This document shows, piece after piece, positions 5,624-59,543 of a stretch of 64,000 nucleotides of DNA (position 1 is its first letter; the number at the start of each line of letters is the position of its first letter). Source of the DNA: Malus domestica. Its lineage: Eukaryota; Streptophyta; Magnoliopsida; Rosales; Rosaceae. Location: assembly GCF_042453785.1 (NCBI RefSeq), contig NC_091663.1, positions 37,221,001 through 37,285,000 on the forward strand, written 5' to 3'. The notes beneath the pieces were generated by a model. It saw only the letters and a list, made by a program, of their open reading frames with translations, did no database searches and was not told the origin of the DNA. Position numbers and translations under genes: made by a program.

Positions 5624-6132
5624 GCCATTCATGGAGCCACCAACGCTCAATCCGCTCAGCCGTTGCTGGCGTGGTTATCAAGTTTTGCCTAAAGAAATCT
5701 GAAATTCCGTCATGTTTTAGAGTTTTGTTGGAGACTCTTGGCCAAATAAGCCGGCAACATAAGAACGAGGGAGGTCTAAATTCAGGGCGGTGTATATAGG
5801 AAAGGGTGTGAATACGTAGGCTTAGTGTAATACACTTTGTAAAGAAAATTGTGAGGAGAGAGGACAATGAGAAAAGCTATACACAGCGACAGAGGGTTGT
5901 ACCAAATTTGCTATTCATATTCTTTTGTATAATTTGTAGTTGAAAGGGAACTACTCCTCCGGCTCTCTCATAAAACTCACGGGAGAAATTTTACTCTCAA
6001 GCAGTGTACGACGACATTTTAGGAGTGTCAATAATAGCTTCGACAATATGCTGGATTAATTTAGGATTGCTTGAATGGTAGAGTACAAATTAAGCTTGTC
6101 ACATTTGTTTATGAAATGCTAATTAACTCTAG
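5624..6132. other. RSH1 3' UTR and flank
   Basis: This stretch follows the RSH1 stop codon. It should contain the 3' UTR, but no clear polyadenylation signal stood out. I see no other gene or repeat. Confidence 0.4.
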
Positions 6133-6490
6133 GCTTTTTAGGTAAAATAATCTCTAAGATTGGTAAAACTTCTCACTTTGGTCTCTGACAATAAAAGTTG
6201 ATAAAGGTGATCCTTGAGTTTATCGAGCGTAAATAATTTTGGTCCTTTTGTAAAAAATTTATCAATATTCTCATTAAATTGTCATGTGTACGACCACATG
6301 ACTAACATTTTAAGGTTATTTTAGTCAAACCAACCCCTCCACTTGACGAGGATTTGATAGATTTTTTACGGAATGACCAAACTAATTTACGGTGGACAAA
6401 CTTAAGGATCACTTCTATTGATTTTCAATGTCAACAACCAAAGTGAGAGTTATGCCACTGTTATGGACCATTGTGACTAAAAACTCTTAA
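6133..6490. mobile_element. MULE-type MITE, diverged
   Basis: The two ends are long imperfect inverted repeats of about 120 bp. They share stretches such as CTCACTTTGGT and GTGATCCTT in opposite orientations. The flanks carry the direct repeat AACTCTAG at 6125-6132 and 6491-6498, which suits the 8-9 bp duplications made by Mutator-like elements. No transposase is present. A related but shorter element lies at 16615-16900. Confidence 0.6.
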
Positions 6491-6686
6491 AACTCTAGCA
6501 ACCAGAAAAATTAAAACTGATCAATTACAAAGTAAATCATTTGCCTCCCCACATCTTCTCACATCATTTTTCTCTCTTTGCACGCCTCTGATTATTCTGA
6601 TCTTTGAATTGAATAAACTAAAAAATAATCGACGGACAAAATTCATTTCTCATTATTATCACTCAAATCGTCGAAAGTAGTCTTAT

Positions 6687-12257: not shown

Positions 12258-13066
12258 TGACAACTTCAATAGAAAATTCCTCGTTGTTTCACTTCGCATT
12301 GTCGACAATAAGCAAACATAAAATATAAAATACAATCCACTTGTACCAGAAGTGACAAAAAGTTACATTAAATTAATGTAAATTTGTAACGTCAAATGAG
12401 ACTCGACGAACACGAAGTGGTGGGGATCAGGATATTTCAAATTTGGCAGTCAATGACTCAGTCGGTTCAAACACAACAACAACAACAGCAAACAAAAATA
12501 GCTTTGAAGTCTTCCCTAGTTAGCTGGCTGTTGTTACTTATCCAAGTCAACATGGATGATGGATGCTGGATTATGCCCACCACTTTGAAATTAGAATACA
12601 CATACGATGTGCTCAGCGGTTTCTAAACATGCTTTGCTTGCATCCACTCTCTCGAGTCTCTCCTTTCATGTTTAATTATATATATTTACGTACCAACTTG
12701 ATCAACAACTTGAGTTAAAGCGAATGAGGATCCTCTTTATAAGAATTCCGAAGATCCTCTAATTACATTCGTTCATCATATGTAGTGCGTAATTTTCATC
12801 AGGTACTGTTTGTATTTAATTTTAAATAAAAAAATTTACAATGATTTCTAATTGCACGATATATGATGAACAAATGTAATTGAAGGATCCTTGAGATCCT
12901 CACAAAGAAAATCCAAACAGGATGCTCATTCAGTTACAGCTACTCCACTTCTTTCACGGTAGAACCTTCAACATACCCATTCAAACTTTTACCAACAATC
13001 ACTATTTTATTTTGGTTATTTGCCCCACCCGATTGCTTTTTAACTGAGAAACTTCCTACAACTAGG
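12258..13066. other. Intergenic
   Basis: Apart from the MITE at 12720-12945 there is only AT-rich sequence with a short CAA run near 12473-12490. No gene is seen. Confidence 0.5.
12720..12945. mobile_element. Short MITE with inverted ends
   Basis: The ends carry inverted copies that include GAGGATC and AATTACATTCGTTCATCATAT (left), the latter matched on the right as ATATGATGAACAAATGTAATT. The element is about 220 bp and non-coding. The exact borders and target duplication are unclear. Confidence 0.55.
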
Positions 13067-13067
13067 A

Positions 13068-13894
13068 TGTCAAATTAGTTGTATCCCAAGACGCTTATGT
13101 AATATCGTATCAAGAAGGAAAAAGGTGGGAATTGTCCCATAAAGAACAAAGAAATGAATAGGGCGGAACTTTGGTCCCTCAGCAACTTGGAAAAATCAAG
13201 GCACCTTCTTCAGTAATCCTAGCTCCTCGCTCGGAGACTTGGGAATCTCCTCTTATATGCTATTACATTTCGGCACTCGGAAGATTCGTGATTATTAAGT
13301 GAGTTGAATTTTTCAAGTCCACAACCGAGAAGCATTATTCACTTGGGAATTTGGGGGAGCATTGTTTGTACCATACTTCACCAATCCTGAAACTACCAAG
13401 TACTTGTCAACTTTATACCTTTGAAGACCTACTGAAGGGTTCATGATGAGGCATCCCTGTCAAAGCACATAAGTTCCTCTCCAATTAAGAGACCAAACAT
13501 AATGTGACACGTGTCAACATTAGAATAAAACTCCTAGGGTTTCATATTGACCACAAACGAAAACATGGGACTATCCTCAACTATAAAAGGAGATCAATTA
13601 ATCCCTAATGCTATTATTCTACTTAATTCATTAGTAGTGATATTAGAACTCACTAATAATGATTATGCTTAAACCTTTGTATCATGTAAAATCCACATTA
13701 TTAATGAGAACTCCTCTACTCTTGTGGACTTAGCCCCAACTTAAGGTGAACCACGTACGTCTTGTGTTTGTGTCCTTATCTCTATCTCTATCTCTTTGCA
13801 TATTACTTACACTTGGTAACCAAAGCAACCTTGCGAAAGTCACACTTTGATATTTTACGTTGTTTCAAAATCAACCCGATTTTGTTCATCAACA
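13068..13894. mobile_element. Probable solo LTR or LTR fragment, family unassigned
   Basis: The layout resembles a plant LTR. A TATA-like ACTATAAAAGGAG lies at about 13580, followed by a transcribed-leader-like region and an end in CATCAACA near 13894. No matching second LTR or coding domain is present, and I found no target-site duplication. It appears broken and old. The left border is a guess. Confidence 0.4.
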
Positions 13895-14796
13895 AAATGT
13901 ATCACGCATATAACTTTCTTTCCACCACTGTAAAATTACTAAAATAGTCATAATTGAACTCACCCATAATAAATTAGAAAATAATTGTATAGGGTATACC
14001 ACCACCAAGAAGGAAAAAAATCGTATGAATTTCAAGTCAATATTTGCAAAGTCGAGTGAGAAAGCTAAAACAAATACCAGAGTGTAATAGATTTAAATTA
14101 GGGTTTTTATCACAAATGGTCCCTGAAATTGACCTACTTCATCAAGATGGTCCCTTAAATTGAAAAGCAATCAATGTAATCCCTGAAAACGGATAGCGCA
14201 AATCAATGTGTTCCTTCCGTTAGAATTCCATCAATATTTCTGCTATGTGCTGACGTGGCACATAAATAGGTCCCACAAGTCTAATTAAATTTTACCATGT
14301 GGATTAAAAATGTTTAAATAATAATTTTTTAAGTTTTATATAATTAAAAATGAAAAAAAAAACAAGAAGATGAAAAGTTCGTCTTCTTCTTCGCCTCCCA
14401 CTGGAGCAACCACCCCAATCCTCACCCCACCCCGTCGCACATGTAATCGCAACCAAACAAATGGCCCAATGCCTCAAAGAAACCTCCCTCTTCCAACTCT
14501 CTAACATCCCCACCCCCATTTCATGCGTCCAAAACTACCAGTCCAAGCTTTCCTCCCTCTCACTCGTTCCTAATATTGTTAACTACTGCTTTGACCCTCT
14601 CCAATTTGTCATCACTACAGTTTCATGTGCGACTGGGTGGGGCGAGCGGTTGAGGTTGCTTGAATGGGAGGGGAAGAAGAAGATGAACAGTTCATCTTCT
14701 TCTTATTTTTTTTCCTTTTTTATTTTTAAGACTTGAAAATAAAATAAAATTTAAAAAAAGAAGAAGAAGAATAAGATGCTTCCTTTATATGCCTTG

Positions 14797-14990
14797 CAAT
14801 CCCACACTGAGTGACAACAAGACGTCGGTCTTGACCCGCAACATCTCCTCTGGCAACGCGTCGTCGAACATCAAAACCAGGTAGGAGTAGAAGCCACTGA
14901 TGATTTTGGAATTGTTGTCAGTCGCAAATCTCATCTTGCCCTCCTCATCCATCTCAACCTACAGCCATACCCGGGGCGTGCAACCCATGA
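14797..14990 (-). pseudogene. Captured SufE-domain fragment, 3' part
   Basis: The minus strand encodes VEMDEEGKMRF, then a stretch ending LPEEMLRVKTDVLLSLSVGL. This matches the SufE domain found in plant SufE-like proteins and in the N-terminal part of plant quinolinate synthase, as I remember those sequences. It begins with MGCTPRVWL directly at the Cassandra border, where the parent has the cysteine-containing GCT motif. A stop codon follows that string, so the copy is not functional. Confidence 0.75.
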
Positions 14991-15622
14991 TGTGACATCA
15001 CATATCGTCCAGGGGAGTGGATCCTCTAAGCCTTATATGTATATTTCATCTCTACCTAACACGAGGCCTTTTGGGAGTTCACTGGCTTCAGGTTCCATCG
15101 GAACTCCGAAGTTAAGCGAGTTCGCGCGAGAGCATTCCCAAGATGGTGATCCACTGGGAGGTTCTCGTGTGAGTTCCCAGAAACAAAACCGTGAGGGCGT
15201 GGTCGGGGTCCAAACCGAACAATATCATGCTACGATGGAGTCGAGCTTGGGATGTGACAATTTGGTATCAGAGCCAATCCCTGGCTGGAAGTGTGCTAAC
15301 AAGAACGTCAGGCCCCTAAGGGGGGTGGATTGTGACATCCCACATCGCCCAGGGGAGTGGATCATCTAAGCCTTATATGTATATCCCATCTCTACCTAGT
15401 ATGAGGCCTTTTGGGAGTTCACTAGTTTCGGGTTCCATTGGAACTCCGAAGTTAAGCGAGTTTGCACGAGAGCATTCCCAAGATGGGTGATCTACTGGGA
15501 AGTTCTCGTGTAAGTTCCCAGAAACAAAACCGTGAGGGCATGGTCGATGCCCAAAGCGGACAATATCGTGTTACGATAGAGTCCAACCCAGGATGTGGTA
15601 GGGCCTGGGCCGGGATGTGACA
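14991..15622 (+). mobile_element. Cassandra TRIM (LTR element), complete structure
   Basis: This is a terminal-repeat retrotransposon in miniature of the Cassandra family. The left LTR is 14991-15259 and the right LTR 15331-15622. Both begin TGTGACAT and end TGTGACA. A tiny internal part holds a primer-binding site complementary to initiator tRNA-Met (TGGTATCAGAGCC) and a purine-rich tract before the right LTR. Each LTR holds the family hallmark, a 5S rRNA-like stretch (about 15091-15180 and 15431-15520). The 5-bp duplication CATGA flanks the element. It codes for no protein, as is normal for the family. It looks structurally whole. The LTRs differ visibly, by very roughly a tenth over the parts I compared, so the insertion is old, probably millions of years. 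Confidence 0.92.
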
Positions 15623-15740
15623 CATGACCTGCTTCAAATCAACCAGACTCGAATCATCAAACGGCAGAAGAAGAGTTGCATAGTGCAACAGGCGTTTAAC
15701 CCTGTTGATTGGCTCGGGGAGTTTAACGCAGCCGCTCGAG
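15623..15740 (-). pseudogene. Captured SufE-domain fragment, 5' part
   Basis: The minus strand reads KLPEPINRVKRLLHYATLL followed by PFDDSSLVDLKQVM, the start of a SufE domain. Plant quinolinate synthase and SufE proteins have the equivalent PEPIDR..LLHYA..LPP motif. This piece stops exactly at the Cassandra target site and is continued by the fragment at 14797-14990 on the far side. Upstream sequence to about 15870 may belong to the same parent, but I cannot place it. Confidence 0.75.
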
Positions 15741-16614
15741 CCTTTCTTGCACTCGTCGTCACCGTCGTAAATGTAATCACAGCCAAACACAACCCCACCA
15801 GGAAGTGCTGAACTTGAAAGAAGCGGAAGGGGAGGAGGAGAAGACTCTAAGCGCCCTGGTTGTTGCAAAGCAAGCATTTTTTATTTTTTATTTTAGTTTT
15901 TTATTCAAAAAATAATATTTTATTAAATTTGTGGGATCCATTTAAGTGCCACAACATCAAACAAAGTTTTTGACGGAATGGTAATGGAAGGACCACATTG
16001 ATTTGTGACATCCATTTTCAGGGACTACATTGATCGATTTTCAATTTTAGGGACCATCTTGATGAGATGGTCAATTTTAAGGACCATTTGTGATAAAAAC
16101 CCTTTAAAATATTATACAACAACTTCTACATGTACTGTACATGTAATTTTCTTTCCACCGCCGAACTAATAAAAGTAGATTTTCACATAATAAATTAATG
16201 GGGTCTTTTGATATGGGTCCAAAGTAACTAAAAATTAGACCTATTTCAAAAATCAAAAGTCACTAAAAATTAGACCTATTTTAAAAGTAGGCTTATAAAA
16301 TTGGACCTATTTCAAATTTTCCCTAAATTAATTAGAATAACAATAGATAGTACATCACCGAGATGAACATAATGTCATGATGATCGTATCCCAAGCCGGT
16401 TTTACAAAGTTACGTTAAAAAGCTAAAACAAATCTTATAGCATGATAGAGTGTATATACAACTAGTGTAAAAGTTTAGATGTACCATGTAATAAACTCTT
16501 TAATACAATATGTTTCACTAACTTCACCACCTATTGCAAGGTGTAGAAATTTTCTCAATAAAAACCCTTGGTAAGGTAATATTAAGGATGAAAACTCGCA
16601 TATTATAAATTTTA

Positions 16615-16900
16615 GGTATTTCAGCCAAAATGGACCTTGAGATTGGCATATTACTCACTTTGGTCGCTGAGATTTGTAGTCGATGATAGTGGTCTTTGAG
16701 TTTGTTCACCATCAATCATTTTGGTCATTTAGTAAAAAATCTCAACTAAATAAAAATAGAATGACAAAAATACTCTCAATTATAGACAAATCATTCTAGA
16801 CCATTGTTTATTAAATTAATATTATGATTGATGGTAGACAAATTCAATGACTAAAGTGAGAAGTAATCTCAATCTCAGAAACCATTTTAACTAAAAAACC
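16615..16900. mobile_element. MULE-type MITE
   Basis: This 286-bp element has imperfect inverted ends of about 60 bp that share TGAGATT and CTCACTTT in opposite orientations. The flanking 9-mers TAAATTTTA (16606-16614) and TGAATTTTA (16901-16909) differ at one base. It is related by its TIR words to the element at 6133-6490. It has no coding capacity. Confidence 0.6.
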
Positions 16901-17452: not shown

Positions 17453-18483
17453 ATGTGCGGTGGTGCTATAATCTCCGATTTCATTCCTCGCGACCGTCGC
17501 CGTGGTGTCACCGCTTCTGACATATGGCCGGACTCTCCCTTCGCTAAGTCCAATCCCGACACTTTCTTCGGCTGCAATCCCACCCCAACTACTCACACCG
17601 ACTCAATTCCGCGTAAAAAATCCCAACCCATTTCAGGTACGCTCTTTCTTCATCCGTATGTTGTTTTCTGCGAGTTTAAAAGATGAGAATTTTCGTTCGG
17701 ATTGTGACTGGGGATTTTTCACAAATAGGTAATGTGCAAGAAGAGAAGCCGGCTAAGAGGCAGAGGAAGAACGTGTACCGAGGCACCAGGCAGCGTCCGT
17801 GGGGCAAATGGGCCGCCGAGATTCGTGATCCCAGAAAAGGGGTTCGAGTTTGGCTTGGTACCTTCAACACCGCCGAAGAGGCCGCCCGAGCTTACGACAG
17901 GGAGGCTCGCAAAATCCGCGGCAATAAAGCCAAGGTCAATTTCCCAAACGAAGACGACGACCTCTCCGCCCAGACCTATCTGAAAAAACCAAATCCTCCT
18001 CTGTTTCAACCCAAAAGCTTTGAATTGGGATTTGGGTATGATCTGAACCAGTTTGCGGCATTTCCCTCCAATTCCAATTCAGATGGGTTTAACTCCATGG
18101 CCATTGCGAACACCGACCCAATTGTTATTTCCGGGGAAGAAAACTCTTGGTCTGGTTCAGATGGCGCTTTCTCCTCGAAGGGGTTGCTGGGTTGCAATCA
18201 GAACGGGATGGGCGGTTGTCAAGGCGGATCTGAGCTGACAGAAGTGGAGGAAACACAAGAAGGGGAATTGAGCTTGGAGGCGATTGCAAGAATGGAAGAT
18301 GACGAAGTGCAGAAGCTTTCTGAGGAGCTAATGGCGTACGAGAACATGATGAAATTCTATCAGATTCCTTATCTGGACGGGCAGTTCACGGCGACTCCCC
18401 AGAATCCTCCGCCTCAAGAAAGCACCGTCAGTGATGACCTTTGGAGCTTCGTTGACGACGAGAGCGTTCCTGCTTCCGTGTGA
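17453..18483 (+). CDS. Group VII ERF transcription factor (RAP2.3/RAP2.12-like)
   Basis: Exons 17453-17636 and 17729-18483 give 312 residues. The protein begins [11 protein letters not shown], the N-terminal signature of group VII ERFs. In this family Cys2 is exposed, oxidised by plant cysteine oxidases and used as an oxygen- and NO-dependent N-degron, so the protein is stable only under hypoxia. A basic stretch (KPAKRQRKN, about 67-75) precedes a single AP2/ERF DNA-binding domain (about 76-133; [24 protein letters not shown]). The C-terminus carries an acidic segment and the group VII activation motif DDLWSFVDD. The intron falls just before the AP2 domain, as is usual for the group. It is predicted to act in the nucleus on hypoxia-response genes. 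The exact orthologue cannot be fixed from sequence alone. Confidence 0.95.
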
Positions 18484-22446: not shown

Positions 22447-24007
22447 ATGGTTTCGCTCAAGCTCCAGAAGAGGCTCGCCTCCAGCGTCCTCAAGTGCGGT
22501 CGCGGCAAGGTCTGGCTCGACCCCAATGAAGTCAGCGAGATCTCCATGGCCAATTCTCGTACGTTCTTCTTCTCCTTTCCGTTCATTTTCCTCCTTGTTT
22601 CCTTCTTTTGATCTGCATATCCTGCGCTGTTTTCTCCACTTAATTAATTTTCAATCCATTTCTTTAATCCCGCGTTAATCCGCTGTTTGGCTATCGTGAA
22701 AACTTAAACATGTAATTACTCTGTGTTGTACGGAAGGGATTTGTGTACGGTTGCTGAAGTTTTGAGATGTCTGTTAACTGTTTTGAACTGGGTTTATTGA
22801 AAGATTATATATTTGTGTTAGATTTAATCTACGATTTGTTTGAAGTATGTGAGCTGTGGTTAATTGATATCGAATTTTGAGTTGAGTGGTAGCTTTTTAT
22901 TATCTGCAAATCAGTATCAAGTAATTAACGTTGGTTTAATTGTTATAATCTGGATTATGTTTTAATTGAAGTCATTTTGTAGCTGTAGAGCGAAATGTGA
23001 TGAGATGTTTTCGTGTTGCGATAATGTATGTTTTACTTGTGTTATATTTGAAATTTCCCCGTATTTTCTACCTGTGAAGTTTCGCCAATAATTTGCAATT
23101 GTATAAGTAGATGTTTAGACTGACGGTATTCGGATGCCAATTTTTTTGAGCATTTCTGTCTTTTCGTGTATTGTTTGTTCACGTGTTTGATTCTGAATTG
23201 CAGGCCAAAACATAAGGAAGTTGGTCAAGGATGGTTTCATCATCAGGAAGCCGACCAAGATTCACTCTCGCTCTCGTGCACGTCGTATGAAGGAGGCTAA
23301 GAGAAAGGGACGTCACTCTGGATATGGTATGTTATTGTATGTGTTATCTCGGCTAGTGTTTGCATTTATTCGGACCAGGAGCAAGTCACATTTTAATGAG
23401 TGGTTTCTTAAATTTTTAGGTAAGCGCAAGGGTACCAGGGAGGCAAGGCTTCCTACCAAGATCCTATGGATGAGGAGGATGCGGGTGCTCAGGCGGTTGC
23501 TTCGCAAGTACCGTGAATCAAAGAAGATTGATAAGCACATGTACCATGACATGTACATGAAGGTTAAGGGTAATGTTTTCAAGAATAAGAGAGTGCTGAT
23601 GGAGAGCATTCACAAGTCAAAGGCTGAGAAGGCAAGAGAGAAGACTCTGTCTGATCAGTTCGAGGCTAAGCGGGCAAAGAACAAGGCTAGCAGGGAGAGG
23701 AAGCATGCCAGGAGAGAGGAACGCTTGGCTCAGGTATTGTCACCGTAATCTGTTTACTGATTATTATGTAATTCATATGAGATTCTCACGTTGCTGATTA
23801 TTCTCTGCGTTCAGGGACCTCAAGAGAAAGCACCAGCACCAGCACCCGCTGCCCCAGCTGCAGCTCAACCAACACAGTTAGTACCCTGCCTTGAAACCCT
23901 ATATATATATATATATATATATATTATCTGCTGACCTTGTTGGTGTTGTTTTTTGCTCATTACTTGTCTCTTTTACTTGCAGGGTATCCAAGAAATCAAA
24001 GAAGTGA
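22447..24007 (+). CDS. RPL19: 60S ribosomal protein eL19
   Basis: Five coding exons, 22447-22558, 23204-23326, 23420-23733, 23815-23876 and 23983-24007, join in frame to 211 residues. The protein is a structural component of the cytosolic large ribosomal subunit and forms an intersubunit bridge. It starts [18 protein letters not shown] and contains the highly conserved basic segments [33 protein letters not shown] and [18 protein letters not shown] long basic C-terminal helix is followed by an Ala/Pro tail ([14 protein letters not shown]) and the ending VSKKSKK. Length and tail are typical of plants. The first intron is long (645 bp), as is common for a leader-proximal intron in highly expressed plant genes. 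An (AT)n microsatellite lies in the last intron near 23900-23924. Confidence 0.96.
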
Positions 24008-24669: not shown

Positions 24670-27182
24670 TCAAAGACTTCTTTGATAACGTGCGTTCGAT
24701 GAACTTGAGCCAAATCGATCCCTAAAGGATGGTTTGCATCCAACGAGATCTCCGCTTCCATAATTTGCTTGTCCTTTAGGTGGCATCTGGACCTGGTGCG
24801 TTGTTGTATCACTATGATTGTCGCATATCCCCAGTTTGACGATGAATGCAACGATACTCCCTTTGTCGATACCCTCGCTTTCAATCCAAATATGACCTCC
24901 CATGGTGTTTACAAACCTAATCCAAGTCATTTTGGAAAATGTGGTGACCAAGTTGGATGAACAGGCAATAAAAAAAAAGCAGGATGCAAATTTTTCAATG
25001 CCCTATGGAACTGGTAAAAAATCAGAAAATATTCAAGTCTACCGTTTGCAAATGGCAAGTCCAAGTCCTGCACCCTCGTTTGTTCGATTGGATCCATTTC
25101 GGGGCTGAGAAAACTTGGTGAAAACATGAGGAATATCTTCTGGGAGAACACCACAGCCGGAATCCTTAACCTGCAACATCAGGAGTGCCATTAGATCACG
25201 TTGCATCGATGTCAGAGTTACCAAGAGATGTCTCAACCTCAGCATACAAAGAAAAACTAATCAAAGATAAATCGCACAAGACCTGAACTCGTAGGTAGAA
25301 GTGGCCCTCAGTTGACGCTGGATAAAACTCCGGTGGTTGCCAGTCTCTTGAAGATTCTGGTTTCGCAAGAGACACTATAATTGAAATATAGCCCTGCTTT
25401 GTGAACTTCACTGCATTACTGGCAACATTGAGAATGGTTTGCATAAGCCGGTTCTCATCTCCAACAGCGCACACAGGTAAATCTGGGGCTAGAATCAAAG
25501 TCATAGACAACTTCTTCACAGATGCGATGGGCTGTACCAAATTCATTACCTACAGTTTGGAAAAGGCTTGCACGTAAGTTTGCCAAAACCAAATTATTCG
25601 AAAGTACACATTCAGGCCCCGGGTCTGGAAAATTTACCTCTCTGAAAACTCCATGGAGGTTAAATATTTCATTGTCTAATTCTAGACTGCCATCATCTAG
25701 TCTAGAAAGATCTAAAACATCATTAATAAGTGTTTCCAAAAGGTTACTACTCTTTAGAACTGTCTCTAGCATAAGCCTTTGTTCCGGAGTCAGTTCCGTC
25801 TCTAACAGAAGAGAAGACAATGCAATGATTGCCTGCATTGGTGTCCTCATTTCATGGTTCATGACAGCAAGGAAATCATTGCGAGCATGGATTGCCATCT
25901 CTGCTTCTCTCCGAGCTAAATCTAAAGCGTTGTTCTGCTCCACGAGCTGAGCACGGGCTCGCATAGACTCTTCCATAATAGCAGCATGTGAAAGAGCAAC
26001 AGCTACCTGAGCACAGCTACACTTGTTATAACCTTTAGTAAGTATATAGGAATCATAAGGAAGGCAAGTGATATATCAGTTGTTTCGGCAAGATCAGGAA
26101 ACAAATGTGCATAAGAGCTCCCAATAAATACATTACTCTTTCAATTCATGAACTTAAGATGCAAGCAGTAGTTAAACAGTAAGCAAATAAGCATTGTGAA
26201 AACAGAAGAAAACGAGTAATGCATCAGGACAGTGAGTCATGCTGTGAAAAGGAAGCAAGTGAACGTGAAAACAGACCTGATCTGCGACAACATCAACGAG
26301 CTCCAATTCATGGTCTCGCCATTTTCTGGTGCTATCAGTGGGTAGAATCAATACCATGATTGCGTAGCTTTTGGCAGAGAAATCCGGCCAGTCATTGATT
26401 TCAAAATTCGAAAGATTCAATAAGGGTACCCGTAGAGCAACAACCTCAGGCGGCACATATCTTCCCACAAGCGGTCTGATCCTGGCCAGTGGGCAGGTGT
26501 ATGGTATACGAATTGCTCGAGAACTATTGAAGACTTCATTGACCACAGGAAGGTTTATTGACACAGTAGACCCAACTTGTATCTGGTAGTTCAGAGTGTG
26601 ATGAAGCTGTAGGTTCATACCAGTTCTGGACGGCATCCATAACGCGCATTCCTCGAGGCCTAAAGTTCTACCCAACTCAACAAGGGTAGTTTTCAATATA
26701 GTGTCCCTATCCAATGTGCTTCGAATTTCATGAGTCAGCATTCTAACATGCCTTCCTGTTTCTTCCTGAGTGAGCATGAGCCCCATCTCCCTGTCAAGCT
26801 CTTCAGCTCTGTTCTTCAGACGCAGCTCCCGGCTCTTAACGCTTAGCAAATCAGGGATAATGTGAACGAGCATTAGAGCGGTAGCACACGATACAACGGC
26901 ACACGAAACCTTGGCAACAGTCATAACTATAGCAACGGTCTTGGTGTGCATAGAGAAAGTCCAGACATTTATGAAATGGGTTGCTCCGCAAAGAATAATG
27001 AAAGCACCGAATTGCATAAGCACCCATCTGTACGGAAAGAAAGCGGATTTCTGCACAAAATATACGAGCTCCAAGGGAATGGAGAAATAGGCAAGGGCAA
27101 TGAACACATCAGATATGTACTGATATTTCACCAGCAACTCATCCGGGGGCCATTGTGCATCTACGCAATCACAGGACTCCAT
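24670..27182 (-). CDS. ERS1: Ethylene receptor ERS1 (no receiver domain)
   Basis: Coding exons 27182-26277, 26006-25638, 25549-25283, 25170-25043 and 24916-24670 give 638 residues. The product is an ER-membrane ethylene receptor that works with CTR1 and represses the response until ethylene binds. Three transmembrane helices fill about residues 20-115. Cys4 and Cys6 (dimer disulfides) and the copper ligands Cys65 and His69 ([10 protein letters not shown]) are all present. A GAF domain follows, then a histidine-kinase domain with the phospho-accepting His353 in [10 protein letters not shown], an N-box (NAVKFT), DSGCG, and [11 protein letters not shown]. The protein ends RYQRSL with no receiver domain, which separates ERS1 from ETR1. 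The start at 27182 is chosen because MESCDC is the family start; an in-frame ATG at 27224 lies inside the likely 5' UTR intron. Confidence 0.96.
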
Positions 27183-27208
27183 TTTTCCAACTGAAGCTTT
27201 CAATGAAT

Positions 27209-27439
27209 CTGTGAAAAAAATCATAAAAAAACAATAAAAAATAGAAAAAAGATTGAAGCTTTGGAACTAATCTTTGTTTTCTGGTGATGATCTTGGCAAT
27301 GCTTAAAGGGTTCAATGAGATTTTCGCTCCAGTATCCAGATATGCTCAAAAACAAGGCTAATCATAAAATAATAATCTCTAATCAACTGATAAACAAAAC
27401 AAATATGATATTATAAATTTAGTCAAATTTTAGTATTAC
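27209..27439 (-). other. 5' UTR intron of ERS1
   Basis: On the minus strand the donor CCTG|GTAATA at 27439 and the acceptor TTTCACAG|ATTC at 27209 bound a 231-bp intron. It would end 26 bp upstream of the start codon. Ethylene receptor genes often have an intron in the leader. Confidence 0.6.
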
Positions 27440-38510: not shown

Positions 38511-40772
38511 ATGTTGGTTTTGAATTTTCATCATCTGGGAATCTGCAAAAGATGATCTTTCTGATCCAATGGTTGTTGGTTTTTACATTGTATATCGGAT
38601 TTGCGTACGATATTTGTGAAAGCCATCCACAAAAAATGGAAGATTAGTTTTATTTAATGATTCATGATTCTCAGATTAGATTGCTTCTTTGTTTTGCCTA
38701 CATTGTCGAGATCTTCGGACATTGAATGCTGTATACTTTAGTCTGTTTTACTCTCAATATTTTGCGTTCGCACTTTCTGTATCGTTGATTAAGGTTTCGA
38801 TTTTAGTGTGTTTTTCTTGGTGTTCTACCAAGTTAGGATTTCTGTAGGCATATCTCTAACTTCCCTTCAACGTTAATTTTCTTTTATTTCGCATTTTTCA
38901 GCTGGCCCTGGTTTTGATTCTGGCATTTACTAGTGCCGAGTATGATGGAGAAGGAAAGGACAGAGAATGCGAAGGGAAGAAGCTTTTCGATCCCAGACCT
39001 CACAGTGTGTCACTCTTGGAGTTTGGTGCAGTTGGAGACGGGAAAACATTGAACACAGTCGCCTTCCAAAACGCTATCTTCTATGTCAAGTCATTTGCTG
39101 ACAAGGGTGGTGCTCAGCTGTATGTTCCACCCGGCAGGTGGCTCACCGGGAGTTTTAACCTCACCAGCCACCTCACGCTCTTTTTGGAAGCCGGTGCCAT
39201 CATTCTTGGATCCCAGGTTCACATATAACACAAGTGAAAATTATTTCTCTACATCGTTCTCTTTCTGCACACTGTTGTTTATTTATGTCTCGATCTTCCT
39301 TTGATTTATTCAATCTAAAGGTCGGAAATAAACAGGGGTGTCCGGAAATCACTTTGCTGACAGAAATTTAACTCTGCCTTGTACCAAAAAAAAACTTTCC
39401 CACTTCTGTAAAAATTGCTCATTTTTGGCAATGCTTATGCAGGATTATGCTCACTGGGAAATTGTGGAACCCCTGCCTTCTTATGGTCGAGGGATTGACT
39501 TTCCGGGTTGGAGATATCGTAGCTTGATCAACGGAGACAATCTAACCGATGTGATGATAACAGGTGAGGATATTCATCCGTAAAATGGTTGTGTGCTGAG
39601 ATATATCCGAGTTCTGCCTTTCTTATGTAACTAATTCCACATTCAATAAATTTTACCAGGTGATAATGGAACCATTGATGGGCAGGGTTTCGTCTGGTGG
39701 GAGCAATTCAGCTATCATGCATTGAATTACAGCCGACCACATCTAGTCGAATTCACCAGATGCGAAAATGTCACTGTATCGAATTTAACCCTCTTGAACT
39801 CCCCTGCTTGGCACATTCATCCGACATACTGCAGGTACTGCTCGTAGCTTATGAGGTCAAATGTCACTTTTCTTGTATGCTCAACTCTACCAGATGCATT
39901 TCAAGAACTAATATGATGTTAAACTATATGTGTCGAAATAATGCAGGAATGTGCAAGTTCTGAACATAACTCTCCATGCTTCTCCTGCATCTCCATATAC
40001 TAGCGGTGTAGTCCCAGGTGCGTCAAAAATTCTGTTCACGCTGTTTATCTATCACTGCATCTCCATATACAAAGCCTAAATATATTTCGTTACGTGTAAC
40101 TCAGATTCTTCCGAACATGTTTGCATTGAGAACTGTAACATTAGTATGGGGCATGACGCAATTGTTCTCAAGAGCGGTTGGGATGAGTATGGAATTGCCT
40201 TTGGAAAACCAACCAAAAATGTGCACATCCGTGGCGTTAACCTTCAGTCTTCTTTAGGCTCCGGCCTGGCATTTGGCAGCGAGATGTCTGGAGGCATATC
40301 AAATGTTCGTGTAGAGCAGCTTCGTCTACATGACTCATTCATCGGCATTGCACTCAAGACAGCTATGGGAAGAGGAGGTTATATGAAAGACATAGTTATA
40401 TCCAATGTCGAATTGGAGAACATTCACTTGGCAATTGAGGCTACTGGTCAGATCGGTTTGCATCCTGATGAAAAATATGATCCCGATGAACTACCAGTTG
40501 TTAAAGGTATCACCTTTGAGAATATGGTTGGCACTAATGTTACATTAGCTGGAAACTTTTCTGGACTCGAAAAATCGCCTTTCACTTCCATCTGTCTCTC
40601 AAATATCTCATTCGCCCTCACTTGGAATTCTTCTACCTCGTGGTTCTGTTCCAATGTGATCGGTTTTTCACAGGAAGTTTCTCCCAAACCGTGTTCAAAC
40701 CTCCGGGACTCGGCTTTTAACTCTTCCTCAGATTGCTTCTTTCCGTTATATAATTATGCTTCAGTTTTGTGA
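38429..40772 (+). CDS. GH28 polygalacturonase-like protein with altered active site
   Basis: Exons 38429-38440, 38902-39216, 39443-39563, 39660-39834, 39947-40017 and 40105-40772 give 453 residues. A 12-nt first exon encodes MKSL; joined to exon 2 it yields a clean signal peptide (MKSLLALVLILAFTSA). The rest is the parallel beta-helix fold of glycoside hydrolase family 28 (LLEFGAVGDGKTLNT, YVPPGRWLTGSFNLTSHLTLF, DGQGFVWWE). GH28 enzymes cut pectin in the cell wall. At the active site the usual NTD motif is replaced by YTSG (SPASPYTSGVVPDSSEHV) and the usual DD by HDA in SMGHDAIVLKSGWDEYG. The clan I remember around Arabidopsis At4g23500 has similar changes, so this may be a subfamily trait. 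A secreted wall protein with doubtful hydrolase activity is the best call. Confidence 0.92.
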
Positions 40773-41635: not shown

Positions 41636-43434
41636 CTATTCGTAAGCACCGGGACTTTCGAAGAGGTAAGCTTCAACGACTTTGTACATGCCCATTGCTC
41701 TTTCTTTGCCACCCCTGATTTCTTCCTCATTGATCTCCAAGTCACCGGCGGCGTGGTACTCACTCATCATCTTACAAGTACATCCGCCGTTAGGGGAAGC
41801 TTGAAAGCTTACCTCATAAGAAATGGACTTAATCTTGTCCGCCAGCACATCCCCTTCAATCAGAGTGTACTTGCACACCAAATTCTCCACGTCCAATGCG
41901 TCTATTCTGTTCTTCATGTACTTATAACGCGTACCTGCACATCGTTGATCACAAAACACGTGCGAAATTAGACATGAAACAGAGAAATGTGACGCGACAA
42001 AGATGATGATTTTTACTTGGGAGTGACCTCCACACTCTCTTTTGGTCCGCTTTCACTCTAGCAATGGAGAGAAACAAAGGGAGGGTACAGATGGAGAAAA
42101 CGAGAGTGTGAAAATCACTATCCTTTTACTCAATTGACCAAAAGAAAAATCCTTTACTCAGGGTCATCAATCACAAAATACGTGGTTGAAATTAGACATG
42201 AAGTAGGAAAATGTGACGTGATGAATATTTAATGGGAAGTTTCCGCACTTCGTGCTTGCACTCTTCCCTTTTATTTTAGCAATGGACATAAATAAAGGAG
42301 GAATAGAGATGGCAATGGTTCGATTTTGGGACAGAAATTGCATATCATTCCCATAACTATGAAAATTAATCATATTCATAACCGAAGTTAACTATAGGGT
42401 GTTATTTATAACCATATCCATGGGTAACAGATTCCTCATCAGTTAACAGTTATATCCATTTTCGTCCATGCAAAAAAACTATTCATTTAACTGACAATAT
42501 AATTTAATAGATACTAATTCTGTCATTGAATATCCACATCCAAATCATAAAAAACAATACAATACTTTCTGGAGGTATTCATGATAAGTCAAATGCGATA
42601 GCAAACATGAAAAAAAGGAAAAGGATGACAAAACAAATAAAACAACCACTACAGAAAAAGACGGAACAAATTATCAAATAATTTCAGTACTTATGAATGT
42701 ACATATATATTCATATTATTATAGACGAAATAAATTATCAAATAATTTCAATGCTTGTAAATATACATATATATTCATACGTATTATATCATAATATATG
42801 ATTTATTAATAGTGGTGGATTTGGGAATGGATATGGACCTCTATAACCATATCCAAACCGTAATTGAATAATATTCACGGTTTTCCCCAATCTCCAAAAC
42901 ATACCCAAATTTTCATCCCCAAATCCACCATCTTCGGACGGTTATCCACAGTTATCGGGTTTAACGGGTTGGATTGTCATGTCCAAGAAAGATGCAGCAG
43001 TGGAGAAAACATAAGTGTGAAAACCACTATTTTTAGGATTAGGGTCTTCGAACACAAGATTTGACGTGACGAAGATGATGATTTTAATAGAGAGTGATTT
43101 ATGCACTCCCTTTTTCTCTGCCTACCCTTTTCCCTTTTGCTTTAGCAACGGACATAAACAAAAGGAGGACGCACAAGTGGAGAAAACAGAAGTGCGAAAA
43201 TCACTATCCTTGTGATTAGGGTCATCGACACATGGTTTATTTATGATTACCCTCAGCAAAGTTGATCTGCTTGATGCTTCCTGCGCCGCCATCGCCGTGG
43301 ATGATTTCGATGCTCTTGATGGCCTGAGGCATGAGCTTGGGGATGAGATTGTGGGAGTCTATGATCAAGGCCTTGAACAACCTGTCTGCTGCAACTGGAC
43401 TTGTAAATTCCTGGCTCAAACTTATGGAACTCAT
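41636..43434 (-). CDS. PR-10/Bet v 1 family protein (Mal d 1-like)
   Basis: Exons 43434-43251 and 41934-41636 give 160 residues, the normal PR-10 length, with the intron splitting a glycine codon at position 62 as in almost all PR-10 genes. These small cytosolic proteins have a ligand-binding cavity and are induced by pathogens and stress; several are food or pollen allergens. The P-loop-like [16 protein letters not shown] is present, followed by [38 protein letters not shown] and the final helix. The N-terminus [12 protein letters not shown] differs from the usual MGVFTYE start, so this is a diverged branch and not a close Mal d 1 copy. The intron is large (1316 bp) and packed with repeats. 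A TATA box lies about 75 bp upstream of the start. Confidence 0.93.
41942..43230. repeat. Repeat-expanded PR-10 intron
   Basis: A unit of about 180-190 bp with shared words (ATTAGACATGAA, GTGGAGAAAAC, GAAAATCACTATCC) occurs about three times: 41942-42125, 42164-42305 continued at 42990-43030, and 43038-43210. The middle unit is split by about 680 bp of AT-rich sequence (about 42306-42989). That insert begins ATGGCAATGGTTCGATTTTG and ends GGGTTGGATTGTCATG, weakly inverted ends like those of hAT-type non-autonomous elements. Confidence 0.65.
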
Positions 43435-53224: not shown

Positions 53225-56200
53225 ATATATATATGATGAAATGGCATTCAATTACTTGACCTCTCATACGTAGGGTTTCGCTTTATTTATTACGAATCTC
53301 TGGCAAGATTTTGTGACAATGTGACTAGGAAGAGAACAAACTATTCGAGCAAGGTAAGAGTAATAGTATGCGTTTTGGCCAGAAAATGTTATGTGATGTG
53401 ACTAGGAAGAGAACAAACTATTCGAGCAAGGTAAGAGTAATAGTATGCGTTTTGGCCAGAAAATGTTATGCGCACATGATTTGAAAAAAAAACAAGTATT
53501 CTGCCTAACAACCAATGGAAGCAAACAAACAAATGGGACATGATGGGAAGCATGGGGCATGCATCCGCATTGCAGATCGATGGCTTCAACGTTCGAAAAA
53601 ATTCAAATCGTAGCTTCGGTGCCGAACCTCCAGCTGTGGATAAAGTTGAGGCCCCACTTAGAGCTTCTTGACCGGTCCTACTCGCGACCGCTCGGCGGGA
53701 ATCTAATGTATGAAAATCCTTCTAAATTTGAGTACTTCTTTAAAAATAAAAAGAAATTAACATAATTAGTGAGATTCATCAAAACATAGAATTCCAAGTT
53801 AATAGTAAAAGTATTATTCCAAAAGCAATCCAATTAAAAGGCACCAGAGAGTTGCTAATCATTATTAATTTTTTTTAAATAAAAAAATGGACCTGTTGGT
53901 GGTTTCATCATTGCAGACCATCATTCCGAGGGTTGAGAAGACTCACAGAAACATGTCAGTCTCCCTTGGCACCATCATATGATTCACCAACACTAAGAAT
54001 CGAATTCAGTACGTGTTGTTTAAAATACGGATATAAAATTCGTATCCAACCACTAGATCATCCCATAGTGGTACTAATTATTATTAATTGTACAGTCCGT
54101 TTTTCTCACCCCCTAATCCAAGATAATCGTTACTTTTCTTATGGATTTGCGCCACGTATTCTGGAAGGGATGTAACAATTACCTTGGGTTAGGAAAGTGA
54201 GCAAATGCGGACTCATTAGTTATAATAAAAGGTTGTCAATAGTTGGATTATAATTGCAATTACCAATTTCAGAAAGATTATATGTCATAATAGCCACATG
54301 GTCATCATGCCATATGGGTGAAAAACAGAAATTGATCGCGATCACATGTTGAGAGGTGGCCAGCTAAGGTGATACTTCCCATGAATGCCTTTGTAGGTTC
54401 TCCATCCCTTTTTGCAACGGCATTGCGCGGGTTTATGCACACAAGATGGAGAGCATGTGGCATGTGGCACGTGGCACGACGAGAAAATAGTCGGATAATC
54501 TCTTCCATCATCGATAAAAGCATATATCTATTTCGTAATGTGACATAGTGACGTCTTATACCATGATGGCGTCGTATGTCAATGAAATAAATATGAGTGT
54601 GAGTTTTTGTGCAATGTATTAATTGTTATATTGATATAAGACATCAAGTGATAATGTACTCGTGCCATGTAAGTTGTCCTATATACTAAATTATATTGTT
54701 ATATAATGAAAACATTACACTACATCATACATGGGGGGTTTTTTTTTCTCTTACGAAAAAGAAAGTTGGTCCTCAATTGAAGCAAAAGTATCATATAAGC
54801 AAGCATATTAGTAGGCGATAAAAAGAGACCAAAACATACTTTATAAACAGAAACCTCGTCCACATAGATGCAGTTTTTTATTAAGTTAGTTTAGGAAAAG
54901 TGAAAGTAGTTCACAAGTTTTAGAAATAGACTTTTTAACAACTTTGGATCATACAATCTAATCAACCTCTACTGTACTCATGATTTTCGCATCTAATTAA
55001 TCTTTGCTCTTTCCGTTTCCCAATTTGGGCAGAGTCCAAAGAAATTTTACAAAGTCAAGAAACCCCTAAACCGTAATCCCTCAATTACAGGTATTATGTT
55101 GTGTTTAAATTTTCCTACATAACCATATTTGACTAACTTAAAGTCGTTGTGACATCACATACAAGTGTAGGTAAGTTCCTTTCGTCTTTTAGCAATGACC
55201 CGGAAAATGCATAAAAAGATAGCCACTTCCCACTAGCTTGATGCCTTTATATAATTACAAAGACTTTTTTTGGTTCCAATGAATAATTACAACGACTCTT
55301 TAGCGATATATGCTACATAGAGAAGGAATATATATATATATTGCCATGTCACATTACAAGGCTAAGCACTCATCCTCATCGTCATCATTATCATGACCAT
55401 AATTAATTATGATTATAGTTTTTGATTGGCCAGAGTGTAAAAAGGAGTCTTTGGTGGCAAATATATGGATCATAGGCGGTCCCCCATGGAAAGCCAACAC
55501 CAGCCGCTTCCACCCAGAAATGCATGCAGTTATGAATTTCAGAACAAATCTATGAACCAAGTGGTATATGTTATATTTTCATATATATATATATATATAT
55601 ATTATATAAACGATGAAAAAGTCAAGCCTTTTCTTTGAAGACACCAATTTGTTAAACTTGCCAGTGGGTGGTTCATAGTTCCTTGTGAGGTTGTAAATGC
55701 TTCTTGTTATAACTAATTAGAAGGTTGGGTTTAATACATAAATAAATATGCATGTAGCTGATAATTGTGAGGATGTGAAGAAACTGTCTTCCGCTAAAAA
55801 TTTAGTAAACTTTGCATGTTTTTATGAAGAATTAACTACTTCTCATATTGTCAATTGGTTTTATAGTGTAATCTTAACTTTTTTTCATGGTATCATAGTA
55901 GCTTGGCCCGCGTGTAAAGCTCAACAGTCACACGTGCTTTGCGTCACGCAATTTGTTTTGTTTATGTGTTAGACTTAAAAGCCCTTCACACGTGAGGAGT
56001 ATGTGAGGATGTGAAGAAATGTGTCAAATCGAAAGTTTATCAAACTTTGCTTGTGTTTATAAAGAATTGAATTGCTCTTTAAAATTGCTTTTTGATTTTA
56101 CGGTGTAACCTCAACTTTATTTCATAATAGGAAAAGGAATATGGATATAATAAAAGTGATGATAAAGTTTTGTTGTGTTTTAGTATTATGTAGGTGGGAC

Positions 56201-58125
56201 AACATGCATCATATGTATTCCCTGTAAATCATGAAAGCATTGCACTCCTGCATCTTTTGGTGTATTTTTTGAGCCGACCAGCTGGCTATGATGAGGGCTC
56301 AGACCCTCAGAGAGATCAAGGGCATTACACCAGTCCTTTTTCTCCTCACATTCCCCTTAATCATCCTATGTACTTGCATTGATGGCTAGCTGTTGCACCA
56401 TTTTGTTTCTAATAATATTCCAACTCATGTACTAAACCCATGTACCAAAAAAGAAGAACAATTTAAGGATAAAGATTTAAAGACATATTTCCTTTTCGTT
56501 GTCGATCGAGCAAGGATATATAGATATTGGTTTGTGCTGTGAGTCTGGACACTCGTGTGAAATAGCTAAGTGTTGTCCTTGATTTCCACGACTATGTCTT
56601 TATGCGAAACGTTATTAAATGTTTTCCGTGACGTTTTTCAAATCTCAAAAATTTACTTTGTGGTGTAGTGCCTTGCAAATGCAATTTATACACCGTTAGA
56701 AATAATTTGTTTGATGGCTTGCAGATAGAGTTCAATGCGGTTGTTTGAGGTTTTGCTTAGGCAAGGGGATTAATATGCCTCCATGGATGGCTTTGCAATC
56801 ACGTTCGATTAGGTTGGTTGGTTCCAATTTATAAATACGAAACTAAACCTAAGCATACGTACGTAGCAAGATCAATGAGATTGAGATTTCTTCAACCGAA
56901 GCTTTGGTTTATGGGCCTTAAGTCTTGATCGACTGGAAACAAATAACAAGTTATCAACATGATAATTTGGATATTGATGGGATTTCTTCAGGTCAATGGG
57001 TTGAAAGGGCTTTAAATTTTGTATGCTTTTGTCCCAAAACTTACATAGGAGGATAAGATGATATTGAGAGGTGCTTTATTTCAAAAAACAAAAAACAAGA
57101 GAGGACAAGATGATAAGATGGTATTTTTTTTTTTTTGGTAATCAAAAGTTTAGAGGGAAGGGGAGACTACCCTATCTTGAGCCATGACATACCACAAACG
57201 TTTTTTAGGACTTAGAGAGGAAGTCTTATCCTTCTTTTGGTTTTTATATATATACCGCTCACCAAAATGAATTGTCGGCAACAGAACTTGAACATATACC
57301 TTAATCTAACAAAGAAAACGATTATTACTAATTCAACCTTACGGACAATAAGATATAGCTTACCCTTTTATTTTAGGTCCACTTGACAAAAAAACAGCCA
57401 ACAAGAAGAAGGTAGATGAGGAACGGAAAGGCCATCCCCGGCCCAAACGGGTGCATGGCGACGTGGAGTATTTACTTTCCTGTTTCCTTCTTCTAGTTGC
57501 AGATGGTAATTAATTAATTAAAGCGATCAGCAGGCTAAGGCATCCGCATATATATACGTGAAATACTTTGGATGGAGTTCTTAGTCTCTAACATTCTTTG
57601 ATTAAAACTTTAATGGTATTCAAAGTTTGATCAAAATCTTTTGTCATTGTACACCTCATTAATTATATTACTATTAATATTTATATTTATATTTTTTTAT
57701 ATAGTTTTGACATTAATTGTTTGATATTTTATGAGATTTATAATCCTATGAATTTAAAATCCCTCATTATAATACTATTAGAAACCGTTATAATAAAAAA
57801 ATTCAAACATTTTAATTGAATGAATGAATAAAACTATGTAACAATAAGAAATAATAAATGGCAAAAGAATGTATCCATAATGTTAAAAAAATTGGTACAT
57901 TTCACATATAACAAAGTGGTACATTAATAAAGAAGAATGAGTACAGTATAAATAAATTAGGGTACAAATAAAAGATTAAAAAATTATGAGTACAAATGAA
58001 ATTTTAAAAAATATGGGCGCAAAAAGAAATTAATACATGAGTACAAATTAAAACTAAAAATAAAATACAAACAAATTTAAAAAAAAGGTTGCAAATTAAA
58101 AGTGGGTACAAACTAAAAATATAAA
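50880..58125. other. Gene-poor interval of about 7 kb
   Basis: I see no protein gene here. Notable pieces are an (AT)n(GT)n microsatellite near 53190-53235, a perfect 77-bp tandem duplication at 53321-53470, an (AT)n run near 55581-55602, and a diverged pair of about 130-bp direct repeats near 55770-55890 and 56000-56130 (shared words GAGGATGTGAAGAAA and AAACTTTGC). The stretch near 55890-55990 resembles LTR debris. From 57840 the text GGTACAAA recurs many times in an AT-rich block that resumes beyond the solo LTR. Confidence 0.5.
53321..53470. repeat. Perfect 77-bp tandem duplication
   Basis: A 77-bp unit beginning GTGACTAGGAAGAGAACAAA starts at 53321 and again at 53398. The second copy is identical for about 72 bases and then diverges. 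Identity means a recent duplication or an assembly artefact. Confidence 0.9.
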
Positions 58126-58396
58126 TGTACCATCCCACAACACCTAGGGGAGTGGATCCTCTAAGCCTTATATGTATATTTTCATCTCTACCTAGCACGA
58201 GGTCTTTTGGGAGCTCACTGGCTTCGGGTTCCATCTTAACTCCGAAGTTAAGCGAGTTCGCGCGAGAGCAATTCCATGATGGGTGACCCACTGGGAAGTT
58301 CTCGTGTGAGTTCCCAGAAACAAAATTGTGAGGGCTTGATCGGAACCCAAAGCGGACAATATCGTGTTACGTTGGAGTCGAGCCGGGGATGTGACA
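58126..58396 (+). mobile_element. Cassandra TRIM solo LTR
   Basis: A single LTR of 271 bp, closely like those at 14991-15622, begins TGTACCATCCC and ends GGGATGTGACA. It contains the 5S rRNA-like block at about 58226-58316. It is flanked by the 5-bp duplication ATAAA (58121-58125 and 58397-58401). Solo LTRs arise by recombination between the two LTRs of one element, so this one is a fossil remnant. Confidence 0.9.
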
Positions 58397-58925
58397 ATAA
58401 ATATATGATACAAAGTTTAGCCATAAAACATAAATATACCATATGTAATTTTTCTATTATTGATTAATTATACAATGTCACGTGACGGTAAACACATAGG
58501 CACAAATACAAATAAAACTTTAAAAAATATGGGCACAAAAATAAATTAATATATGGGTACAAAATAAAACTGTAGACATCGAAATTTCGGTAAATAAATG
58601 TTGACCGATAAATCAAAGTGTCAACGCTCATGTATTACATAAATTTTACACGTAGCGTGTGACTCAACGAAAATTGAAATGAGTTGGAAAAGTCATCAAA
58701 TAGGACACGTGTCAACACCTGGCAGAAACGACTTATTTCATCTGGAATATTATATTCAAAATTAGGCCTTGGAAAATTCTATAAATACAAGCCCAATTTC
58801 ATTCATTTGAGGAGGGAACCAATTGATATTACACCTTGAAGCTCTGAAGCTCTGAAACTCCGAAGCTCTCAAGCATCCAGGTTCCCGAAGAATCAAGAAA
58901 GTGTTCTTCGTTCTTTGTTCATCAC

Positions 58926-59315: not shown

Positions 59316-59543
59316 AACAAAATACCCATAAATCAACACCTTACGGAGATCGAATCAGAGGATCAAATTTGAGAGAGATTGTAACCCAAAATCATCAAAT
59401 ACTTAATATTTGTTTGTGCGCGTTTGTTCTTGTCTCTTTCGTTTCGGGAATTTTCCGTGTTTACAAATTGGCACGCCCGGTGGGACCATCTCTACCTCTC
59501 ATCTCTTTCTCCGTTCAAGGAATCCAAGCACACCTCAAAGTCA

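Follow-up and report, generated by a model that had tools for sequence, protein, structure and literature searches.

A composite Pack-MULE in apple, probably formed by fusion of two gene-carrying Mutator-like elements

How does a single mobile element come to hold fragments of more than one host gene? This question is raised by a locus on contig 3 (C3; other contigs are abbreviated likewise) of the apple genome, within the window C3:37221001-37285000, by which we mean the whole analysed stretch of 64,000 nucleotides; bare coordinates below are positions in it. Positions 14101-16102 are a Mutator-like element, a Pack-MULE with host-gene fragments inside. Its terminal inverted repeats (left, 14101-14310, plus strand; right, 15885-16102, minus strand) align at 80% identity over 206-210 bp (14101-14310 against 15897-16102, E 2.7e-44), and their outermost 35 bp (14100-14134 against 16069-16103) are 94% complementary. 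A preliminary description of this DNA had recognized inverted ends of about 190 bp; the ends are there and are somewhat longer, about 210 bp. The near-perfect 9-bp target duplication that it reported was confirmed, with TTTAAATTA at 14092-14100 and TTTAAAATA at 16103-16111 agreeing at 8 of 9 positions, a degree of identity reached in 6 of 20,000 draws of random 9-mer pairs from the window.

Searching the assembly (651,096,769 bases, 19 contigs) with the whole element, and scoring the best 40 of 5766 candidates so that copy numbers are lower bounds, we found at least two full sisters, at C7:24320223-24321626 and C4:26748608-26750019. Both have their own perfect 9-bp target duplications (9/9), TTTGCTTTT and TTCTTTTTA. 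The inverted ends, which the preliminary description had read as a pair, thus recur as a pair at other sites around the same interior. A partial copy at C4:26692421-26693083 was dropped as an additional insertion: it has its left flank in common with the C4:26748608 copy, the two forming one alignment of 1169 columns at 93.6% that starts about 580 bp outside the element, and is a duplicated locus. At the homoeologous site on C11, which lacks the element, the flanks align in order at 70-88% apart from two short matches that break the order. We rejected this locus as an exact empty site because the missing stretch, 13008-16619, exceeds the element. The duplicated region pairs encountered in this work were C3 with C11, C6 with C14, and C8 with C15. 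The longest frames of the element reach 141 aa (ATG/GTG/TTG-started) and 184 aa (stop-to-stop), and none of the four element frames scanned against Pfam matched a transposase.

The element ends about 1.35 kb upstream of the ATG at 17453 of a gene spanning 17453-18483. The first frame of this gene begins with a stretch of 16 residues (not shown) like that of group VII ERF oxygen-sensing factors, and the following frame carries an AP2 domain. Domain matches elsewhere in the window mark frames for ribosomal L19e (23197-23745, plus strand), an ethylene receptor (26172-27266, minus), glycosyl hydrolase 28 (40080-40769, plus), Bet v 1 (41636-42049, minus) and a retrotransposon gag (59385-62135, plus). 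Two stretches within 6123-6492, one per strand, are 64-67% identical to the left end of the MULE and are possibly a small old relative of it. A perfect tandem duplication of a 77-bp unit, in two copies, occupies 53319-53470.

One captured gene fragment lies in the right half of the element. On the minus strand, 14783-14990 and 15628-15713 are the distal and proximal pieces of the SufE part of quinolinate synthase exon 1, and 15801-15870 is the start region of the same exon, the last two assigned by alignment to the parent and the proximal piece by DNA search as well. The distal piece, taken alone over 14785-14952, matches Pfam PF02657 (SufE) at E 7.8e-5 and 22.9 bits, below the cut-off of 27; the other SufE piece, beyond the intervening TRIM, gave no Pfam match on its own. 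The minus-strand frame continues from one side of the TRIM to the other and is SufE-like; it contains an in-frame TAG in the distal piece and a further stop codon, TAA, close to where the parent-aligned part ends. In the C4 sister (L010, minus strand, TRIM-free) the corresponding reading is open over 171 aa and matches SufE in Pfam at E 1e-18, and in the C7 copy it also contains a stop. A PDB sequence search with the 15623-15877 reading returned four matches at chance level (E 1.4-1.6).

Candidate parents were located by DNA search with 15623-15880 (10 of 10 candidates scored) and translation, at C6:29311575-29312200 and from C14:25648707 onwards. Each has an open first exon followed by a NadA-type exon, and the C6 gene matches SufE (E 1.7e-29) and NadA (E 1.1e-7) in Pfam. 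In Arabidopsis this architecture is that of SufE3/quinolinate synthase, the loss of which is embryo lethal according to the part of PMC5890173 that we draw on. The minus-strand SufE piece of quinolinate synthase type named in the preliminary description is therefore traced to a parent gene by DNA search, translation and Pfam alike. The C6 gene is closer to the captured copies than the C14 gene (0.162-0.214 vs 0.208-0.256), and some diagnostic columns of the fragment side with C14. A third quinolinate-synthase-like locus, C13:10488921 (L020), has broken frames and was left out of the comparisons.

The captured stretch opens at about the start codon and extends as far as the codons for GLPGAQR, with roughly 207 bp of the C6 candidate parent's exon 1 swapped for an unrelated piece of 76-87 bp (15714-15800, minus strand, by alignment and DNA search). 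A DNA search placed this piece at seven sites, all within elements of the clan (the three copies and B elements, defined below, on C13, C12 and C10), and returned no parent gene. The B element on C13 has the same exon stretch replaced as the three copies, and shares with them 12 of 275 columns against both candidate parent genes; five more columns are common to the three copies alone. In the elements on C12, C10 and C2, the start piece adjoins the unrelated piece. This suggests that the quinolinate synthase capture in the copies and in the B elements had one origin. In the C10 and C2 elements (L018, L021), the captured start piece lies in both arms and is now part of extended inverted repeats.

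The element has no intact SufE plus NadA coding sequence (SUFE3): it contains a portion of exon 1 that has stops in it and is interrupted by the TRIM. The captured sequence is not a working gene, as the preliminary description had concluded from an internal stop codon. Estimates of dN/dS, at few sites, are 0.19 for the C6 gene against the C14 gene, 0.36-0.69 for the genes against the three copies and 0.65-0.97 for the copies against one another, as expected if the captured sequence evolves as relaxed.

The left half of the element holds a second captured gene fragment, which the preliminary description had overlooked. Its plus-strand frame 14461-14736 matches the Pfam SPARK domain (E 1e-8), a domain known, in the text available from PMC11287157, from receptor-like kinases related to ARK. 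The captured fragment itself is 150 bp long (14464-14613, plus strand) and is 87.3% identical to a gene on C15 without gaps and to one on C8 with a single 9-bp gap. The C15 locus, an open gene with SPARK and kinase domains by Pfam, and its paralogue on C8 are the candidate parents; the window copy is equidistant from the two, at 0.139 each. The fragment is framed by two inner arms, at 14361-14463 on the left and, inverted relative to it, at 14614-14704 on the right. The innermost 28 bp of the left arm resemble part of the unrelated piece at 15714-15800, and this 28-bp motif is common to the elements of both subfamilies described below. All six candidates of the SPARK DNA search were scored; four lay in copies of this element and two in genes, and no element with SPARK alone was found among them.

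Relatives of the element fall into two sets. Eight elements that were examined after a search with the left arm, and that have these arms around different interiors, form set A (C4:5441824, C13:6885259 and C6:4598249 were left out), and four from the quinolinate synthase search form set B; the B element on C12 had one end located, and those on C2 and C10 hold only parts of the piece. In a module matrix of these and the three full copies (15 elements), all eight A elements have arm cores and lack a SPARK or quinolinate synthase match, all four B elements have quinolinate synthase pieces and lack an arm-core or SPARK match, and the three full copies carry every module. Each set was collected by a search with its own module, so the evidence lies solely in the lack of the other set's module.

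The ends of the element tell the same two sets apart. BLAST had first suggested the A/B grouping of ends, before a tree was built from 48 ends of 26 elements (22 with both ends, four with one; 27 loci were tried and o_71 gave none). The ends of two A elements, A_C1a and A_C1b, are identical, and the pair may go back to a single insertion that was duplicated. In the tree, the three copies have left ends that cluster with A_C13_R, A_C2_R and o_65_R (support 100/95) and right ends that cluster with five B ends (99/93). AU tests rejected a grouping of the six ends with one another (p 1.8e-7) and also a grouping of the six with most A ends (p 0.0069). On this phylogenetic evidence, we assign the two ends of the element to different MULE subfamilies, the left to A and the right to B.

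Between the two halves lies a junction zone (14756-14782, plus strand) that is common to the three full copies. Because the three share it, the join is older than the three insertions. Just to its left, an AT-rich stretch (14705-14755, plus strand) is 74% like the innermost 45-50 bp of a subfamily A right terminal repeat; the resemblance is weak and the sequence AT-rich, and the stretch is a possible remnant of such a repeat. We consider it probable that this composite Pack-MULE arose by fusion of two Pack-MULEs, followed by at least three insertions. By this account, a subfamily A element would have acquired the SPARK-kinase fragment between its inner arms, and a subfamily B element exon 1 of quinolinate synthase. 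The two would then have been joined, with A's left end and B's right end kept and the internal ends lost save for the possible short remnant. The join may have come about as neighboring elements were co-mobilized with loss of internal ends, the model given for fusion of neighboring Pack-TYPE elements in section 9 of PMC8903248, or by template switching in repair, as covered in part of PMC8277862; the data fit both routes. The hybrid, non-autonomous, would have moved to at least three sites by a transposase assumed to act in trans. A Cassandra TRIM retrotransposed into the lineage of the C3 copy.

Fusion has to be weighed against serial capture, in which one MULE took up both fragments by gap filling and its ends drifted or were partly converted, with no second element. 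Gap filling with template switching is a standing proposal for Pack-MULE capture in the portion of PMC8277862 consulted, and two observations that count against fusion fit it: unlike ends also occur in other elements of the clan, and the SPARK search yielded no element with SPARK alone. The path between the two ends is 0.24-0.29 in the studied element, compared with 0.318 in A_C2, 0.298 in o_65, 0.451 in B_C13 and 0.907 in B_C2. Three further points count against fusion: two B right ends, those of C13 and C2, fall outside the B group on long branches; the junction remnant is weak; and A and B have the 28-bp motif in common. Against serial capture stand the grouping of the right end with quinolinate-synthase elements that lack the A arm cores, and of the left end with arm-bearing elements, and the position of the A arms, which frame SPARK alone and leave the quinolinate synthase piece outside. 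We regard serial capture as unlikely and fusion as the better account.

Retention of the element for regulation, through end-driven transcripts that would act antisense to quinolinate synthase or the kinase, strikes us as very doubtful. The two fragments face each other, so that a transcript reading in from the left end would contain SPARK in sense and quinolinate synthase in antisense orientation; 12 of 130 21-mers of the SPARK piece exactly match a candidate parent, and small RNAs from Pack-MULEs have been proposed (PMC8277862, in the same portion). Yet of the 447 21-mers in the quinolinate synthase stretch, only 1 has an exact match in a candidate parent, which leaves the antisense potential that the preliminary description saw against the parent weak. 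The stops in the window and C7 copies, and dN/dS values among the copies that resemble those of relaxed sequence when set beside the value between the C6 and C14 genes, also argue against such a role. As for chance inverted repeats around a degenerate pseudogene, with no transposon at all, the AT-rich context is the sole point in their favor; the interior and ends common to three sites, each of which has a different 9-bp duplication, refute this reading, to which we give practically no credence. Fusion of two Pack-MULEs is the reading that we carry forward.

The innermost layer is a Cassandra TRIM (14991-15622, plus strand) that splits the minus-strand quinolinate synthase fragment and is flanked by CATGA at 14986-14990 and 15623-15627, so that the complete Cassandra with its duplication inside the captured piece is as first described. 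It comprises a 5' LTR (14991-15259), a primer-binding site (15263-15274) and a 3' LTR (15331-15622). Rfam RF00001, a 5S rRNA-like family, matches both LTRs (15074-15178, E 7.3e-3; 15408-15515, E 8.1e-5), in each case below the gathering score. A motif scan located a pol III box A in both LTRs and the primer-binding site TGGTATCAGAGC at 15263. These features, which we compared with the Cassandra motifs (primer-binding site, box A and box C) as set out in the available sections of PMC7215508, are those of Cassandra; the studied TRIM differs in box C, for which RRRATRGGTRACY had no exact match within it, the best sites having one mismatch in the 3' LTR and three in the 5' LTR. The sole other Cassandra LTR-like sequence seen in the window, at 58125-58398, is 87% identical to the 5' LTR.

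At the position of the TRIM, the C7 and C4 sisters carry a single CATGA and no TRIM. The TRIM is therefore later than the quinolinate synthase capture and later than the split from the sisters. The preliminary description had proposed the order capture, transposition, TRIM; the sisters bear out the placement of the TRIM after capture and are compatible with either order of the TRIM and this copy's last move to C3. The LTRs differ at 35 of 270 aligned sites (87.0% identity, K2P 0.147), a larger distance than that between the sister MULE copies (0.122-0.128), so that a simple clock would make the TRIM older than the divergence of these copies. As this contradicts the TRIM-free sister sites, we dropped the divergence clock as a guide to the order of events. 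The excess LTR divergence may stem from methylation decay or from LTRs that were unequal at insertion. The layering in the preliminary description accordingly stands; the SPARK fragment, the unrelated piece within the captured exon and the make-up from two subfamilies are additions to it.

A second composite occurs in the same clan. Five of the eight A elements (L043, L045, L046, L057 and L058, on C9, C10, C7, C1 and C1) combine an RPL37 fragment with a carrier fragment in the layout end, arm, RPL37 fragment, inner terminal repeat of about 60 bp, arm, carrier fragment, arm, end. L057 and L058 lack the arm at the carrier's outer end, and the carrier match in L046 is only 37 bp long. Two further A elements (L041, L042) hold the carrier fragment alone between two arms, and L044 holds neither cargo. 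Pfam identifies RPL37 at E 4e-17 and a mitochondrial carrier weakly, at E 0.011, below the cut-off; by this match, the carrier fragment is probably of mitochondrial carrier origin. The five elements probably share one fusion. The arrangement parallels the one proposed for the studied element, and the set includes the simpler form, carrier alone, that is missing on the SPARK side of the studied element.

The RPL37 fragment itself is unbroken in the elements (L045:923-1140), and its best matches, on C8 (10247991-10248300) and C15, are interrupted by 91 and 99 bp of what is likely an intron. Because the fragment is continuous in the elements and split at C8 and C15, a processed copy may be its source. 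A match without the split, at 76% identity, lies at C7:17184145.

The studied element resembles known Pack-MULEs in its long inverted ends, 9-bp target duplications, captured exon fragments with identifiable parents and presence in several copies, and differs in having ends from two subfamilies and cargo in two modules. It is also like the fused Pack-TYPE elements of the AB group of Os-Pack-Mariner cluster 217, in which two smaller, separately known elements are joined in one mobile element; section 9 of PMC8903248, our source for that group, takes its examples from PIF and Mariner and also names CACTA and hAT. In contrast to the AB group, our element belongs to the Mutator superfamily, has long ends and gene fragments in both halves, has nearly lost its internal ends, and has a SPARK-only half without a separate example. 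MULEs with multiple TIRs, as the accessible part of PMC3310237 presents them, offer a further parallel in their internal terminal-repeat sequence and in acquired sequence that joins extended ends, which the C10 and C2 relatives also show; here, however, only a short possible remnant is internal, and no full extra TIR. In the literature searched, mainly non-subscription, we found no paper joining a Pack-MULE with quinolinate synthase, and among the matches listed none, by title, concerned Pack-MULEs in apple or such a fusion. In the part of the Rosaceae transposon paper PMC11197308 at hand, the term Pack-MULE appears a single time, in the reference list. The kind of event, a composite Pack-MULE, is already known, and this example of it is well resolved and unusually complete.

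Neither of the frames 15452-15877 and 14461-14736 should be annotated as a gene. The TRIM-free sisters provide a relative date for a Cassandra insertion that needs no clock. More broadly, the origin of multi-gene Pack-MULE cargo is unsettled, and here a single genome supplies, within one clan, candidate parents, simpler relatives and two fused products, from which the order of events can largely be read instead of assumed. We lean, on balance, towards the view that Pack-MULE fusion would be a recurrent route to multi-gene elements in this genome: at least two independent fusions (SPARK with quinolinate synthase, RPL37 with a mitochondrial carrier) would have taken place in the clan, inner terminal-repeat sequence would have been left at each join, and a two-subfamily hybrid would have stayed mobile for at least three insertions.
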